64,000 nt of DNA, taken from the NCBI RefSeq assembly GCF_900129795.1, contig NZ_FQWW01000001.1, positions 620,001 through 684,000 on the forward strand, read 5' to 3'. Positions within the stretch are counted from its first letter, which is position 1. Each line of letters starts with the position of its first letter. The position numbers and the translations under genes are program-made. Source of the DNA: Flavobacterium sp. CF108 (GTDB taxonomy: Bacteria > Bacteroidota > Bacteroidia > Flavobacteriales > Flavobacteriaceae). The notes under the pieces are model-generated. The model did no database searches, was not told the DNA's origin, and saw nothing but the letters and a program-made list of their open reading frames with translations. This document shows positions 6,309 through 16,521 of this stretch, one piece after another.

Positions 6309-6979
6309 GTGCAATAAAGCAAAATCTGATTCAAATAAAATCAACACTTCCTGAAAATGTAACTCTAGTTGCCGTTTCAAAAACAAAACCTGTTTCAGAT
6401 TTGATACAGGCTTATGAAGCCGGACAGCGTATTTTTGGAGAAAACAAAATTCAGGAAATGACTGAAAAATGGGAACAAATGCCAAAAGACATTCAATGGC
6501 ATATGATTGGTCATGTTCAGTCGAATAAAGTCAAATTTATGGCACCGTTTGTGAGTTTGATTCATGGAGTTGACAGTTTGAAATTATTACAGGAAATCAA
6601 CAAGCAAGCTTTAAAAAATAACAGAACAATAGATTGCCTTCTTCAAATGTATATTGCCGAAGAAGAATCTAAATTTGGTTTAGACGAAAAAGAACTAAAT
6701 GAACTTTTAACTTCTGTGGAGTTTAAAGAGTTAAAAAATATTCGTATCTTAGGTTTAATGGGAATGGCAACCTTTACAGAAGATCAAAATCAAATAAAAA
6801 AAGAATTTACTCATTTAAAATCAATTTTTGATTCACTAAAAAATATTGACGGATATGGTAAAGACGCACTGCAGTTCGTCTCTACAATTTCAATGGGAAT
6901 GTCCGGAGATTATCAACTTGCAATAGAATGCGGCAGCACAATGGTTCGCATTGGAAGCAGCATTTTTGGAGGAAGATAA
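6305..6979 (+). CDS. yggS: YggS/PROSC-family pyridoxal phosphate homeostasis protein
   Basis: The 224-residue protein forms the TIM-barrel PLP-binding fold of the YggS family. VAVSKTKP near the N-terminus holds the PLP lysine, Lys26. Further family motifs are FGENKIQEM, WHMIGHVQSNKVK, KFGLDEKE, LGLMGMATF and the C-terminal SMGMSGDYQLAIECGSTMVRIGSSIFG. It binds PLP and buffers its level in the cytosol, and no enzymatic reaction is established. Its start codon overlaps the stop of the preceding gene by four bases. The 3' side runs into the repeats that flank the four-helix-bundle gene. Confidence 0.93.
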   Translation: MSAIKQNLIQIKSTLPENVTLVAVSKTKPVSDLIQAYEAGQRIFGENKIQEMTEKWEQMPKDIQWHMIGHVQSNKVKFMAPFVSLIHGVDSLKLLQEINKQALKNNRTIDCLLQMYIAEEESKFGLDEKELNELLTSVEFKELKNIRILGLMGMATFTEDQNQIKKEFTHLKSIFDSLKNIDGYGKDALQFVSTISMGMSGDYQLAIECGSTMVRIGSSIFGGR

Positions 6980-8876: not shown

Positions 8877-9716
8877 ATGAAAAACAGAAAATCAAAATAC
8901 GAAATCTTTAGAGAAAAAATCAAAATTATCCTGTATGGTACAAACACCATTTTAGGACGAATGTTCGATTTAGTTCTTTTAGGTTTGATTTTATTAAGTG
9001 TTCTTTTGATTATGATGGAAACTGTTCAGGGAATCAATCAAAAATACCATGAACAACTTATTATATGCGAATGGATTATAACTGTCTTTTTCACAATCGA
9101 ATATATCTTAAGAATTATATCCATTCAAAAACCAATAAAATACATTTTCAGCTTTTACGGAATCATCGATTTACTTGCCGTATTACCCATGTATTTATCA
9201 ATATTTTTTCCCGGCGCAAGCGTCTTATCAGTTATTAGAGCATTACGTTTCTTCAGATTATTCAAAATATTACATATTCCGCAAATCTCCCATCAATCGG
9301 CACAACTTCGGGATGCGATCGAAGCCAGTAAAGAAAAGATTTTAGTATTCATCTATTTTGTACTCATCAGCACCGTAATCATTGGTACAATTATGTACTT
9401 AGTCGAAGGCAAAGAATCAGGATTTACCAGTATCCCAATGGCGATTTACTGGACAATAGTAACCTTAACAACAGTTGGTTACGGCGACATTTCACCTCAA
9501 TCCCCTTTAGGGCAGTTTATTGCAGCACTGGTAATGATTTTAGGTTACGGAATCATTGCAGTTCCAACCGGAATTGTAACAGCAGAATTTGCAAAAAACA
9601 CTTTAAAAAACAACACAGTAAGCGGTAAAAAAACATGCAGAAAATGTCAATCGCAAGTACATTTTGACAACGCCAAATACTGCTACGAATGCGGAACCCA
9701 ATTGCCAAATAATTAA
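8877..9716 (+). CDS. voltage-gated potassium channel-like protein with C-terminal zinc ribbon
   Basis: The 279-residue protein has six membrane helices in the ion-transport order. S4 carries regularly spaced arginines (Arg121, Arg124, Arg127 in VIRALRFFRLFKIL). The pore loop holds the K+ selectivity filter TVGYGD (199-204), followed by an S6 helix at 211-232. After S6 a short tail carries CRKCQ (Cys254, Cys257) and CYECG (Cys269, Cys272), a four-Cys zinc ribbon unusual for this family. It should let K+ cross the inner membrane in response to voltage, and the ribbon might bring metal- or redox-dependent gating or assembly. It is located just downstream of the exonuclease gene (30 bases), where TATCTTCG just ahead of the ATG could be a -7 element. 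Confidence 0.9.
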   Translation: MKNRKSKYEIFREKIKIILYGTNTILGRMFDLVLLGLILLSVLLIMMETVQGINQKYHEQLIICEWIITVFFTIEYILRIISIQKPIKYIFSFYGIIDLLAVLPMYLSIFFPGASVLSVIRALRFFRLFKILHIPQISHQSAQLRDAIEASKEKILVFIYFVLISTVIIGTIMYLVEGKESGFTSIPMAIYWTIVTLTTVGYGDISPQSPLGQFIAALVMILGYGIIAVPTGIVTAEFAKNTLKNNTVSGKKTCRKCQSQVHFDNAKYCYECGTQLPNN

Positions 9717-11636: not shown

Positions 11637-11749
11637 TTCCTGCAAGGTTTTCAAAACCTTGTAGGTATTTGCATTTGAAAGCGTTCACTCAAATTTCGAT
11701 ATCAATATCTAAATAACAAACCTACAAGGTTTTGAAAACCTTGCAGGAA
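11637..11749. repeat. 30-bp perfect inverted repeat pair
   Basis: The 30 bases at 11637-11666 are the exact reverse complement of 11720-11749, with 53 bases between. Each arm is itself nearly palindromic around GCAAGGTTTTCAAAACCTTG. This could fold into one long hairpin or two small ones. The motif resembles REP-like palindromes scattered in Flavobacterium genomes. It lies in the 3' region between convergent genes. Confidence 0.85.
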
Positions 11750-11761
11750 CTTATACTAAAT

Positions 11762-11790
11762 AAAAAACGATGCAAATTGCATCGTTTTTT
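11762..11790. terminator. bidirectional terminator
   Basis: AAAAAACGATGCAA (11762-11775) and TTGCATCGTTTTTT (11777-11790) are perfect reverse complements around a single base. A-runs and T-runs on both sides make it work for the thioesterase gene (plus) and for the rtcB-prfH operon (minus). Confidence 0.9.
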
Positions 11791-11798
11791 ATTTAAAA

Positions 11799-12326
11799 TC
11801 ATTTCAATTTCTTTTTAGAATCTTTTTTAGATTTCTTTTTCTTTTTTAGCAAATCAATTTTGCCTTCAATTCTTTTCTCTACATCGCTAATATTACATTC
11901 GTATGCAAATTGTAAAGAATGAAGTTTAGCATTTTTAATTTCCTTCAAAGCTTTCTTAAACTCATGCTGTGCTTCAAAAAGAATCGCTTTTTTAACGTAA
12001 ATATCAGATTTATTAATCCCTTTTATCGTTAAAGCAAAATCAATTAATTTTTGTGCTTCTTCATAATCTTCATTCAAAATTAAAGTCTGCAAATAATACG
12101 GATAAACTTCAAGCGCATGAATATTAATCGATAAAGCCTCCTGAAAATAGGTTTTAGCCTCTTCATAATTCATTAATTGTTCTGCCTGAATTCTTCCGTA
12201 CAAACACAAAACCATTGTATTTTTTGCATCATAAGAAAAAGCATAATCTAAAGATTCAATCGTTTCTTCAAGCGAATACGGATAGTTATCCAAAGCCTGA
12301 AAAAGGTATTTATCAATTGTTTTCAT
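11799..12326 (-). CDS. tetratricopeptide-repeat protein, last gene of the rtcB-prfH operon
   Basis: The 175-residue protein is built of helical TPR-like repeats: AKNTMVLCLYGRIQAEQLMNY is one, the repeat with EALSINIHALEVYPYY is the next, and a third contains KAILFEAQHEFKKALKEIKNA. A strongly basic tail, about 20 residues of mostly Lys and Ser, ends it and could contact RNA. TPR proteins act as protein-binding scaffolds. Its start codon overlaps the end of prfH by 14 bases, so translation is probably coupled. A role with PrfH or the ribosome is inferred only from this position. Confidence 0.8.
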   Translation of the reverse strand: MKTIDKYLFQALDNYPYSLEETIESLDYAFSYDAKNTMVLCLYGRIQAEQLMNYEEAKTYFQEALSINIHALEVYPYYLQTLILNEDYEEAQKLIDFALTIKGINKSDIYVKKAILFEAQHEFKKALKEIKNAKLHSLQFAYECNISDVEKRIEGKIDLLKKKKKSKKDSKKKLK

Positions 12327-13002
12327 TTCGTAAATCGTTTTTTAATTTCTGACGAGTTCCTTTGTAATTTTTCTCTACTTTGTTCTTTTTAAAGTCACTT
12401 CCGGTAAAAACCCTCACAGGATTGCCACGCTCAATATTCAGCTGATTTTCCCATTGTTTCCCAACGTAATTTTTAAGTTGAACCAGTTTCTCGTCTTCTA
12501 GTTTTTTTAATAATCTTTCTGTTGCCAGTTTTTTGTTTTGGTGCTGCGAACGACTGTCCATAGAAACAACCGCAATTCCTGTTGGAATATGCGTTGCCCG
12601 AATTGCCGAACTCACCTTGTTCACATGCTGACCGCCCGCTCCTGAACTTCGCATTGCCTGATATTGAATATCATTTTCTGAAACTAATGCATTTTTCTGC
12701 GGTTCGATTTCAAAAATTCCAATAAACCAGTTCTTGCGTTTATGCATTTTCCTAAACTGACTCTGACCAATCCATTGAATAGTTCCAATCCAAGATTTTA
12801 TAAAGCTCTCAGCATTTTTTCCTTTTACAGAAATTGAAACTGTTTCAACGGTTCCGTTTTCTTCTCCAACTTCTCGTTGTAGTAAGACAACATCTAATTG
12901 CTGATCCTGCGCTTCTTCCAACACTTTTTTAAGTACTTGGGCAACAACCCAAGTGCATTCTGCAGGTCCACGACCCGCTGTTATTTGAATTATTCTTTCC
13001 AT
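12313..13002 (-). CDS. prfH: peptide chain release factor H (RtcB-associated)
   Basis: The 229-residue protein is a class I release-factor homologue. The peptidyl-tRNA hydrolysis loop is intact: GAGGQHVNKV with GGQ at 123-125, followed by RATHIPTGIAV and SMDSRSQHQNK. It is much shorter than RF1 and RF2 (about 360 residues) and lacks their N-terminal domain, as PrfH proteins do. PrfH genes are characteristically next to rtcB, and the pair is linked to rescue and repair of ribosomes damaged in the decoding centre. Here rtcB is two genes upstream. Its start overlaps the zinc-ribbon gene by 13 bases and its end overlaps the TPR gene by 14. Confidence 0.93.
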   Translation of the reverse strand: MERIIQITAGRGPAECTWVVAQVLKKVLEEAQDQQLDVVLLQREVGEENGTVETVSISVKGKNAESFIKSWIGTIQWIGQSQFRKMHKRKNWFIGIFEIEPQKNALVSENDIQYQAMRSSGAGGQHVNKVSSAIRATHIPTGIAVVSMDSRSQHQNKKLATERLLKKLEDEKLVQLKNYVGKQWENQLNIERGNPVRVFTGSDFKKNKVEKNYKGTRQKLKNDLRNENN

Positions 13003-13601
13003 TTCTTTAAAATTTTAAGTAGCTTTTCTCTGTTTTTTGCTACTTTTACAAATTGTGGTAAATACGCCACTAAACTCGACGTATAATTGACCTTTGAATT
13101 TCTTTCTCTTAAACCAGCTTGAATATATCTTTCCAGATAATCAATATGATCCTGATTATAAGCCCAGAAAATGTTACCATCGATTTCTTTTTGAAACCAA
13201 AGTGGTAAATTATACCACGTGTCCCTAACTAAACCATCATCAAGCTTTGACTCTATTTTAATTTCATTAATCTTAGGCTTAACTTCTTCCTGAAAATTGC
13301 AATGCGGGCATCTGGTTTTATAAATCAAAGGCTTTATTTTAAAGGCCCGAGATTCAAATTCAAATTTCTCAAAGCACTTACTACAATATATTTTTCCATA
13401 AGCAACATACTTGAAAATAGGCGGTTTAGATTTAGAAAAACACTGTTTGCATTCAAAATACATCGACTTACATCTACCGCATTTACAATCATCTTTTAAC
13501 TTTTTTATAATAGCTGATTTAGATTCACATTTTGGGCACTTTACCGAAATTTCATCAACAAAATTTCTCAACCATTTATTTTCATCTTGAAATCTTTCCA
13601 T
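12990..13601 (-). CDS. cysteine-rich zinc-ribbon protein of the rtcB-prfH operon
   Basis: The 203-residue protein is not one I recognise. Residues 20-105 hold eleven Cys, mostly as CxxC pairs: Cys22/25, Cys41/44 (with Cys39), Cys51/54, Cys73/76 and Cys98/101. That is enough for at least two zinc ribbons, a pattern common in RNA- or ribosome-binding proteins. The C-terminal 90 residues lack Cys. They carry LPLWFQKEIDGNIFWAYNQ, then a basic helix region ending LLKILKKWKE. Its start lies 12 bases after rtcB and its end overlaps prfH, so the three are made together. A part in recognising damaged RNA or ribosomes is plausible but unproven. Confidence 0.75.
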   Translation of the reverse strand: MERFQDENKWLRNFVDEISVKCPKCESKSAIIKKLKDDCKCGRCKSMYFECKQCFSKSKPPIFKYVAYGKIYCSKCFEKFEFESRAFKIKPLIYKTRCPHCNFQEEVKPKINEIKIESKLDDGLVRDTWYNLPLWFQKEIDGNIFWAYNQDHIDYLERYIQAGLRERNSKVNYTSSLVAYLPQFVKVAKNREKLLKILKKWKE

Positions 13602-13613
13602 AATTTTACTTTT

Positions 13614-15005
13614 TTAACGATCCATTCTAACAATCTTCGGCGTAAAAGTTCCTAAGACTTCGACCAAATCAGTTTGGTTTGCCATCACTTTTGTAATGTC
13701 TTTGTATGCCATTGGAGCTTCATCAATATTTCCTCCAATCAAGGTTACATCATTCGCTTTCAAAACCTTTTTGATTTCGCTTTGCGTAAAAGTACTTTTG
13801 CATTTTGCTCTCGAAAACAAACGTCCGGCGCCATGAGAAGCAGAATTTAAACTCTCTGCATTTCCTTTCCCTTTCACAATGTAACCCGGAGCAGTCATTG
13901 ATCCGGGAATAATTCCCAATTGACCTTCTCCAGCAGGAGTTGCTCCTTTTCTGTGCACAATACATTCCTGACCATTTACCATTTCTTTCCATGCAAAATT
14001 GTGATGGTTTTCAATTGTAACCACTACTCTTTTTCCAATTGCTTTAGCAATTCGTCTGTGAATATCATCGTGACACGCTTTTGCATATTCTCCAGCTAAA
14101 TTCATTGCCAGCCAATATTCCTGACCATCGTGTGTATTCAAATCCAGCCAGGCCAAATGCTGTACATTTTTTGGCAACGGACATTGTTTTATTGCCAAAT
14201 AGGTATAATGTTTCGCAATATTTGCACCTAAACCACGAGAGCCACTATGTGAAAGAACTGCGAAATATTCGCCTTTTTCAAGCTTCCATTCATTCTCCGG
14301 ATTATCAATTTTGGCAATTCCAAATTCTACAAAATGGTTTCCTCCGCCTGAGCTTCCTAATTGTTTATAGGCTTTTGGCAAAAGATTCTTTAGCAGCGGA
14401 ATATTCTGAAATTCACTTTTATGAAAAACTTCATGATCTACTCTTGAAGCATGTGTTTCATTCATTCCGAATTTTGTATTGTCTTTTAAAATTGCTTCTA
14501 ACTGATGTTCTTTTCCTTTGAAATGCGACGCAGGCAAATCAAAAATTGAAAGACTCATTCGGCATCCAATATCAACTCCAACTCCGTATGGAATCACAGC
14601 ATTATCTGTTGCTAAAACTCCACCAATTGGCAATCCATATCCTGAATGTGCGTCCGGCATTAAAGCTCCGGCTACTGAAATTGGGAGTTTCAACGAATCA
14701 TACAATTGAAATTTTGCCTGCTGGTCAATTTCATTTTCACCAAAAATTGTAAAAGGAGCTCTTGTTGCTTTAAGCTGATGCATTCTTACCTGAACCGGTT
14801 TTATCAAACCTTCGGCAACTTTTCCCCAAGTTCCGTGACCTTCAAATTTTTCAGGATTCAGCAGAACGTCTTTTGCCTCTGTTAGAATAGATTCCTTTTT
14901 TTCTCTTTTTCTATATCTGTTTATCTGCCCTAAGGCAATGTTTATTGAATTATTCTTTGGAAAGCCCAATTTAATCAGGTCTTTTCCAGTTAATTTATTT
15001 CCCAT
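13614..15005 (-). CDS. rtcB: RtcB-family RNA-splicing ligase
   Basis: The 463-residue protein keeps the residues of the Mn2+/GTP-dependent RNA ligase. Cys148 is in VGVDIGCRM, His224 in GGGNHF, His253 in HSGSRGLG and His334/335 in ENHHNFAW. His351 in VHRKGATPAGEGQ is the predicted guanylylated residue. RtcB joins a 2',3'-cyclic phosphate (or 3'-phosphate) end to a 5'-OH end of RNA. No RtcA cyclase or archease gene is in the window. Co-transcription with prfH fits the RtcB2-PrfH branch rather than the RtcAB operon. Its start overlaps the end of the basic protein gene by 11 bases. Confidence 0.95.
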   Translation of the reverse strand: MGNKLTGKDLIKLGFPKNNSINIALGQINRYRKREKKESILTEAKDVLLNPEKFEGHGTWGKVAEGLIKPVQVRMHQLKATRAPFTIFGENEIDQQAKFQLYDSLKLPISVAGALMPDAHSGYGLPIGGVLATDNAVIPYGVGVDIGCRMSLSIFDLPASHFKGKEHQLEAILKDNTKFGMNETHASRVDHEVFHKSEFQNIPLLKNLLPKAYKQLGSSGGGNHFVEFGIAKIDNPENEWKLEKGEYFAVLSHSGSRGLGANIAKHYTYLAIKQCPLPKNVQHLAWLDLNTHDGQEYWLAMNLAGEYAKACHDDIHRRIAKAIGKRVVVTIENHHNFAWKEMVNGQECIVHRKGATPAGEGQLGIIPGSMTAPGYIVKGKGNAESLNSASHGAGRLFSRAKCKSTFTQSEIKKVLKANDVTLIGGNIDEAPMAYKDITKVMANQTDLVEVLGTFTPKIVRMDR

Positions 15006-15756
15006 GATTTATATCATTTTCATCTAAATATTGCTGATACAATACATTTAGACTTTTATTTTTAATACGGTTTTCTTCTCTTGGATCTTTATAATCGTAA
15101 TAACCCGAATAACGAGAGTAACCATCTACTAATTTGTTTATTTTATTTCTTAAATTAAGATTAGTAATGTAATTATCCAGAAGCTGAATTTCACTTTCCA
15201 AATCTGAATCGACCATTTTAGTATGCGTTATCATATAAGGACTGATACGAAGTACGTATCTCCAAGACTCATTAAACATATAATGAATTCTATGTCGCTT
15301 GAAATTGCTGCACCAACGTTCTCGTTTATAAAAATGCGCTTTTTCTTTTTCTGTCAATTCTAATTTTGAGCTTCTCCACTCCCATTCTGAAAATTCCTTT
15401 ACAGTTTGAATCTTTTCAACATAAACATTTCTTCTTTTTCTCTTTTTCTTTCTTTTAAAAGATTTTTCAGAAGAAAACTGCCATGTGTTTATTTTTTCCA
15501 ATAGCCCTCTGTAAAATGACGATTCATTTGATCTTGCAATATCTTCTCTCAGTACAAAACTGCGCTGCCACCCTTTTTGATAAGGGCTTTCAAGCGGAAT
15601 CAATGGTAAATTATTTTGTTTTTGCCAAAGTTCTTTTTCTTGCTTTCTTAACTGGATTAAATGTTTTTCAAAATCCTTTTTTACTAATCTTTTTTTTCTT
15701 CTTTTACTTTTAAAACGAGTACACAAAGCATACTCATCTACCGTATAATTTTCCAT
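14995..15756 (-). CDS. highly basic protein of unknown function, first gene of the rtcB-prfH operon
   Basis: I choose ATG 15756 (253 residues). The frame is open to a TTG at 15789, but the extra 11 residues look like leader sequence. No known domain is seen. Two dense basic clusters stand out, residues 16-27 (KSKRRKKRLVKK) and about 101-109 (KRKKKRKRR). The rest is rich in Trp, Tyr, Arg and Glu, with HFYKRERWCSNFKRHRIHYMF in the middle and a C-terminal YSRYSGYYDYKDPREENR. Such composition suggests binding to RNA or ribosomes. It overlaps rtcB by 11 bases and so is probably translationally coupled. A function in RNA repair is inference from context only. Confidence 0.7.
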   Translation of the reverse strand: MENYTVDEYALCTRFKSKRRKKRLVKKDFEKHLIQLRKQEKELWQKQNNLPLIPLESPYQKGWQRSFVLREDIARSNESSFYRGLLEKINTWQFSSEKSFKRKKKRKRRNVYVEKIQTVKEFSEWEWRSSKLELTEKEKAHFYKRERWCSNFKRHRIHYMFNESWRYVLRISPYMITHTKMVDSDLESEIQLLDNYITNLNLRNKINKLVDGYSRYSGYYDYKDPREENRIKNKSLNVLYQQYLDENDINHGK

Positions 15757-15822: not shown

Positions 15823-15865
15823 TAAATAAAATCGATTTTCGGGAAAATTTTAAAGTGTCTAGAAT

Positions 15866-15902
15866 AAAAAAAGCCCGAAACTAAATGTCTTCGGGCTTTT
15901 TT
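15866..15902 (-). terminator. strong terminator between the small leader unit and the rtcB-prfH operon
   Basis: On the minus strand AAAAAAGCCCGAA and TTCGGGCTTTTTTT form a GC-cored stem around a 10-base loop with a T run. It begins about 20 bases after the stop of the 27-codon ORF and lies about 110 bases before the first operon ATG. It could simply end the small unit or work as an attenuator. Confidence 0.85.
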
Positions 15903-15922
15903 ATATATCTAAAAATGTATTT

Positions 15923-16285: not shown

Positions 16286-16521
16286 AAAGATTGGCGATTC
16301 TCTTTGCGTAGACGCACTGCTGTGCGTCTCTACGATATACGTTATCTATAAATCAATCACAATTTTAATATAGAGATGTACACTGCAGTACGTCTACACG
16401 ATTTACATTATCTATAAATCAATGACAATTTTTAATATAAATCAATCATAATTTTTAATATAAATCAATCATAATTTTAATGTAGAGATGCACTGCAGTG
16501 CATCTAACCAAAGATTGGCGA
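16286..16521. repeat. cluster of hairpin repeats bracketed by a 12-bp direct repeat
   Basis: The nearly 600-base gap between the small leader unit and the response regulator carries this cluster. AAAGATTGGCGA occurs at 16286-16297 and 16510-16521. Between them are three hairpins of one family: GACGCAC..GTGCGTC at 16307-16334, an imperfect one around CACTGCAGTAC at 16371-16398, and the perfect palindrome ATGCACTGCAGTGCAT at 16488-16503. The spacers repeat AAATCAATCATAATTTTTAAT about four times. No gene is supported here. A 73-codon plus-strand frame at 16066-16287 looks spurious. Confidence 0.75.

Follow-up and report, generated by a model that had tools for sequence, protein, structure and literature searches.

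A predicted rtcB-prfH operon of Flavobacterium sp. CF108 and the linkage of its helper genes to release factor H

The locus described here raises the question of what three additional genes are doing in an operon that also encodes the RNA ligase RtcB and the release factor PrfH. It lies within a 64,000-nucleotide stretch of Flavobacterium sp. CF108 (assembly GCF_900129795.1, contig NZ_FQWW01000001.1, positions 620,001 to 684,000 of the forward strand), which we call the window and whose numbering is used throughout. The open reading frame (ORF) list places on the minus strand, in order, a gene for a basic charged protein (bas), rtcB, a gene for a zinc-ribbon protein (zr), prfH and a tetratricopeptide repeat (TPR)-like gene. 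The overlaps are 11 bases between bas and rtcB, 13 between zr and prfH and 14 between prfH and the TPR-like gene, with a gap of 12 bases between rtcB and zr, bearing out the interlocked five-gene layout described in the first-pass annotation of the window. The five genes appear to form a well-formed operon of the bacterial RNA-repair-coupled release class, as predicted from the sequence.

Gene prfH (12313-13002) encodes a release factor H of 229 amino acids, which scored 238.7 bits against the NCBIfam equivalog TIGR03072 (cut-off 166.65) and covered profile positions 3-200 of 200. Its GGQ motif (SSGAGGQHVNK) aligned to the GGQ of 9mor_A, and the nearest solved chains, 9mor_A (263.3 bits) and 7sa4_8 (155.8 bits), are both named release factor H. 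Gene rtcB (13614-15005) encodes an RNA ligase of 463 amino acids that matched PF01139 with 282.1 bits (cut-off 27; E 1.3e-83) and aligned with the archaeal RtcB 1uc2 at the DIGC, GNHF, HSGSRG, ENHH, HRKGAT and SHGAGR stretches, whose Cys and His residues we take to be the metal-binding and guanylylated residues of catalysis. A second, unlinked rtcB, 51% identical to that of the operon, is found in the same genome (G000:C15:361561-362643). In Escherichia coli, the RtcB2-PrfH pair has been reported to guard against colicin E3, a nuclease whose cut in 16S rRNA falls between A1493 and G1494 (PMC9223846). Family membership and this published pair together support the earlier proposal that RtcB and PrfH are partners in ribosome rescue and RNA repair. 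Because PrfH passes its equivalog cut-off, the motifs of RtcB are kept and protection against colicin E3 is on record for the E. coli pair, we consider that the operon probably encodes a counter-ribotoxin module for the rescue and repair of ribosomes with cut rRNA.

The linkage of the other three genes was scored across 147 PrfH loci, the window included. Two loci were excluded from an initial 149, L259 because its contig stops 5 bases short of prfH, L260 because it encodes an RF2-like protein under the PrfH cut-off. From one set of 80 loci the 8 best (L005-L012) were used and the other 72, at 27-38% identity and many of them probably RF1 or RF2, were left out. The 147 include at least one likely duplicate, as the contigs of L007 and L188 have the same length, and leave out the second PrfH copy of genome G185 and 22 of the 82 order genomes with PrfH. 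A helper was counted as present when it lay near prfH on the same strand, using hidden Markov models built from the first 129 loci. At E ≤ 1e-40, TIGR03072 detected PrfH itself in 76 of 249 genus genomes, 82 of 395 order genomes (81 of them over the cut-off) and 22 of 295 class genomes, these samples sharing genomes. The TPR-like gene adjoined prfH in 127 of the 147 loci, while bas was present in 50, zr in 23 and a nucleotidyltransferase gene in 15. The fewest changes on a PrfH tree built by a quick method, compared with the mean of 500 shuffles, were 5 for the TPR-like gene (19.0), 27 for bas (41.8), 12 for zr (21.8) and 9 for the nucleotidyltransferase (14.5), suggesting that the TPR-like gene is a stable third member and that the others come and go within lineages.

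The TPR-like gene (11799-12326) encodes 175 amino acids with a lysine-rich tail. Nine TPR or TPR-like Pfam models matched it at E ≤ 1, but all scored below their cut-offs, the best being TPR_2 with 24.2 bits (cut-off 27), and we therefore call the product TPR-like, the earlier TPR assignment being kept in this weakened form. It is near-fixed beside prfH, and the spacing is tight, with 70 of 117 measured prfH-TPR pairs overlapping, 48 of them by exactly 14 bases. In five loci (L143, L146, L169, L182 and L184) a 181-amino-acid gene (cluster c41), resembling a DnaQ/ERI1-type exonuclease by eye, follows the TPR-like gene on the same strand, 580-860 bases past the prfH stop. This gene may be a further RNA-repair accessory, or may merely share the neighborhood.

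Gene bas (14995-15756) encodes a basic charged-helix protein of 253 amino acids from an ATG start, or 264 from a TTG start. At the limits used, searches of Pfam, NCBIfam, PADLOC and PHROGs gave no match to it; nor was one found on plasmids or in phages at E ≤ 0.01, and the best match of its profile to PDB sequences had an E of 0.98. It was present in 32 of the 395 order genomes, all 32 of them PrfH-positive, and is thus PrfH-specific in this sample. The best copy in each genome lay within 3.4 kb of prfH, starting 2.1-3.3 kb away (P ~5e-25, uncorrected for descent); genome G316 has a second copy ~4.8 kb from prfH. The 14 PrfH loci read from outside the order include 7 with bas. It stands upstream of rtcB in L367 and L373 and downstream of prfH in L368, L369 and L372, so its position shifts among loci and its linkage to prfH is kept. 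In L363 and L366, which belong to one genus in a different family of the class, bas directly precedes prfH and the stretch read contains no rtcB; the single rtcB found in each of these genomes is on another contig. As far as these loci go (one genus, both draft genomes, with prfH of L363 ~340 bases from a contig end), bas is tied more tightly to PrfH than to the ligase. In two further loci, L178 and L190, the bas frame is split into two ORFs and looks broken or misassembled, and rtcB and prfH are open.

Gene zr (12990-13601) encodes 203 amino acids. Its best Pfam match was weak (15.4 bits), but seven cysteines are invariant across 13 aligned members, so that the proposed zinc-ribbon identity is supported by the cysteines and not by Pfam. 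The best match of its profile to PDB sequences (E 0.0011) was a eukaryotic zinc finger, 2ctd, a resemblance of the zinc finger only. The zr profile matched 30 of the 395 order genomes. In 11 of these the match lies against prfH and scored 228-339 bits. The remaining 19 yielded stand-alone relatives only, with a best match of 67-166 bits; in 14 of them these relatives are shorter than zr, have a single ribbon and share its C-terminal domain. Seven of the 19 also carry prfH elsewhere in the genome. At 24 stand-alone loci (20 genomic and 4 plasmid), read with flanks of ~6 kb or ~4 kb and with one contig of only 4.3 kb, we found no rtcB, prfH, bas, TPR-like or nucleotidyltransferase gene. Twenty plasmid records also carry relatives of zr (Streptomyces 11, Priestia 7, [Kitasatospora] 1 and Nostoc 1), whereas phages gave no match, and five stand-alone members scanned against Pfam and NCBIfam matched no model at cut-off. 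The operon zr belongs to a broader family of stand-alone proteins, from which it was recruited and with which it shares the C-terminal domain. Elsewhere in the window, a plus-strand gene (8877-9716) encodes an ion channel (PF00520) whose end carries a small cluster of cysteines resembling a zinc ribbon.

In most of the first 129 loci, the slot between rtcB and prfH, in which zr lies, is no more than a short gap or an overlap. Across all 147 loci it held zr in 23 and the nucleotidyltransferase-like protein in 15; L381 has both in tandem, which rules out that the two are mutually exclusive. A further, different cysteine-rich ORF occupies the slot of L234, and in L238 (2852-8217, oriented with prfH on the plus strand) two different rtcB genes stand in a row with a 198-amino-acid ORF between them, followed by prfH and the TPR-like gene. 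The nucleotidyltransferase-like protein has conserved SGGWAWH and DIDxFV stretches, which we take to be those of a Pol-beta type nucleotidyltransferase. Its library matches were weak (Lnu(C), 14 bits against a cut-off of 300; NTP_transf_5, 12.6 against 31.2), and its profile found nothing better than E 0.58 among PDB sequences. The Pol-beta assignment agrees with the nucleotidyltransferase accessory described in PMC6514570. Homology among bas, zr and the nucleotidyltransferase was not supported (hhalign probability 0.1-0.2%, with shallow alignments). In a plain table, bas was associated with the presence of zr or the nucleotidyltransferase (23, 27, 14 and 83 loci; Fisher p 5e-5). Independent pairs on supported branches numbered 9, of which 3.1 changed in the same direction and 0.2 in the opposite one (median p 0.25), so that shared descent can explain this coupling.

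Comparison with published systems shows that the kind of operon and the kinds of helper have been described before. Burroughs and Aravind (2019; PMC6514570) reported TPR, zinc-ribbon, charged-helix and nucleotidyltransferase genes around RFH-RtcB and proposed contact with rRNA. The window shares with those systems the core of adjacent RFH and RtcB genes, the TPR (with weak scores here) and charged-helix genes, and a zinc ribbon with a charged C-terminal region, but they include a Pol-beta nucleotidyltransferase and the window operon has none. What is added here is the quantitative linkage of the helpers and one new family relation: the second domain of the zinc-ribbon protein, given in that article as of unknown provenance, finds a home in the stand-alone family of zr. 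The E. coli RtcB2-PrfH pair (PMC9223846) likewise has its ligase gene directly upstream of a prfH of the same family; it differs in consisting of two genes with no annotated helpers, and the window RtcB falls below the NCBI models for that ligase. RtcAB operons, which combine RtcB with RtcA and RtcR, have the ligase in common with the present operon, but none of its five products matched the RtcA or RtcR family, and PrfH is present instead. The two-gene operon was described in 2006 (PMC1586002), and the role of PrfH was still stated to be unknown in 2021 (PMC8327144).

A rescue and repair module of this kind would work in several steps. A nuclease would cut 16S rRNA in the decoding centre, as is in print for colicin E3 and E. 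coli, and PrfH would enter the damaged A site and release the peptide, as is in print for E. coli PrfH and is expected here from family membership. RtcB, to judge from its family and kept motifs, would then join the 2',3'-cyclic-phosphate and 5'-OH ends; in some relatives the nucleotidyltransferase could refill trimmed 3' ends ahead of this sealing. We include the helpers in the module because the TPR-like gene is near-fixed, bas is tied to prfH and the prfH-TPR spacing is tight. The Bas and TPR-like proteins would act at the PrfH/ribosome step, by binding the 30S subunit or as a scaffold, and Zr may bind or present RNA. For Bas, whose gene is linked to prfH, the ribosome step is the most likely site of action. 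A more specific proposal, which we put forward only tentatively, is that Bas is a dedicated PrfH cofactor recognising decoding-centre-cut ribosomes and that the zr family is an undescribed family binding ribosome or RNA damage, with stand-alone members in several phyla.

Several points weigh against a rescue module with helpers. The window RtcB is below both NCBI cut-offs for PrfH-linked RtcB of the RtcB2 type (TIGR03073, 138.8 against 271.8; NF007153, 175.2 against 407), so the transfer of function from E. coli RtcB2 is not exact. According to PMC9223846, rtcB2 alone on a high-copy plasmid already protects E. coli. Records of E. coli and of Aureibacter tunicatorum (Cytophagales) carry rtcB-prfH with no annotated helper (as judged from annotation only, with no profile search), suggesting that the core works, or at least persists, without helpers. 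Likewise bas is missing from 97 and zr from 124 of the 147 PrfH loci, which makes two of the three helpers optional. Structure models of Bas (from 2 sequences; mean predicted local distance difference test score (pLDDT) 46.4) and Zr (from 3 sequences; mean pLDDT 56.3) were too poor to show a fold, and a Foldseek search with the Zr model gave 0 of 211 matches at E ≤ 0.001. Finally, we found no functional experiment on bas, zr or the TPR-like helper in the open-licence PubMed Central literature.

The best surviving alternative is that the module repairs cut tRNA or some other RNA rather than the 16S decoding centre, with the helpers recognising that RNA and PrfH only freeing stalled ribosomes. 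RtcB enzymes seal tRNA in other systems. Repair of tRNA, with the nucleotidyltransferase refilling degraded ends, is also suggested in PMC6514570. However, a section heading of PMC9223846 states that the E. coli pair gives no protection against tRNA-cutting toxins, setting it apart from the protection against colicin E3, and the tie of bas to PrfH points to the ribosome. We therefore regard this alternative as unlikely.

The helpers could also be passengers in a permissive operon, and both their frequent absence from PrfH loci and the stand-alone relatives of zr are in keeping with this. Against it, bas was never found without prfH in the 395 genomes, and its linkage survives changes of gene order. 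All five genes, the helpers among them, are under purifying selection: the ratios of nonsynonymous to synonymous substitution (dN/dS) against 8 chosen relatives were 0.02-0.03 for rtcB, 0.04-0.09 for prfH, 0.06-0.13 for the near-fixed TPR-like gene, 0.14-0.19 for bas and, in 7 of 8 pairs, 0.13-0.19 for zr, the eighth pair having a saturated dS. With these observations the passenger explanation becomes quite improbable. The co-occurrence of the partners with prfH that the first-pass annotation expected thus held for the TPR-like gene and for bas, which was confined to PrfH genomes, but not as a fixed set, since bas and zr are optional; its contrary outcome, that the partners are unrelated passengers, was not borne out. 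Nor is there much probability that Bas and Zr are RNA- or DNA-binding regulators of the operon outside the repair machine, for although they are small, basic, cysteine-rich proteins and no other regulator is among the five genes, no DNA-binding family was matched in the Pfam and NCBIfam searches, and most PrfH loci lack both, so that the core is expressed even where they are missing.

At the ends of the operon we chose by eye two terminator-like hairpins on the minus strand, one directly 3' of the TPR-like gene (11757-11798; -19.5 kcal/mol, z -8.0) and one upstream of the operon (15862-15904; -17.7 kcal/mol, z -5.9). A consensus scan listed neither, and it listed two short stems of 5-6 pairs within the operon on the same strand. 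A family search identified the neighbors on the other strand as an acyl-ACP thioesterase gene and miaA, and ORFs read by eye upstream of the operon apparently encode a response regulator and a histidine kinase. A 27-base palindrome occurs in two inverted copies (11639-11665 and 11721-11747) in the interval separating the operon from the thioesterase gene. Elsewhere in the window, short palindromes AGACGCACTGCAGTGCGTCT occur at 6862-6881, 16310-16329 and 16486-16505, giving six matches on the two strands and none in 100 shuffles, and 23-base repeats accompany them at 16347-16481; together these appear to be a dispersed element resembling repetitive extragenic palindromic (REP) sequences. No tRNA and no Rfam family at gathering score was detected in the window, and none of the five proteins matched a PADLOC defence model at E ≤ 0.01.

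If the helper roles suggested by linkage are true, the helpers would reveal how rRNA-cut ribosomes are found by the cell and passed on from peptide release to RNA sealing, matters on which the two-gene E. coli system is silent. The dependence of bas on PrfH, even where the ligase gene is not adjacent, predicts that Bas acts with PrfH on the ribosome, and the stand-alone relatives of zr provide an independent lead in unrelated bacteria.

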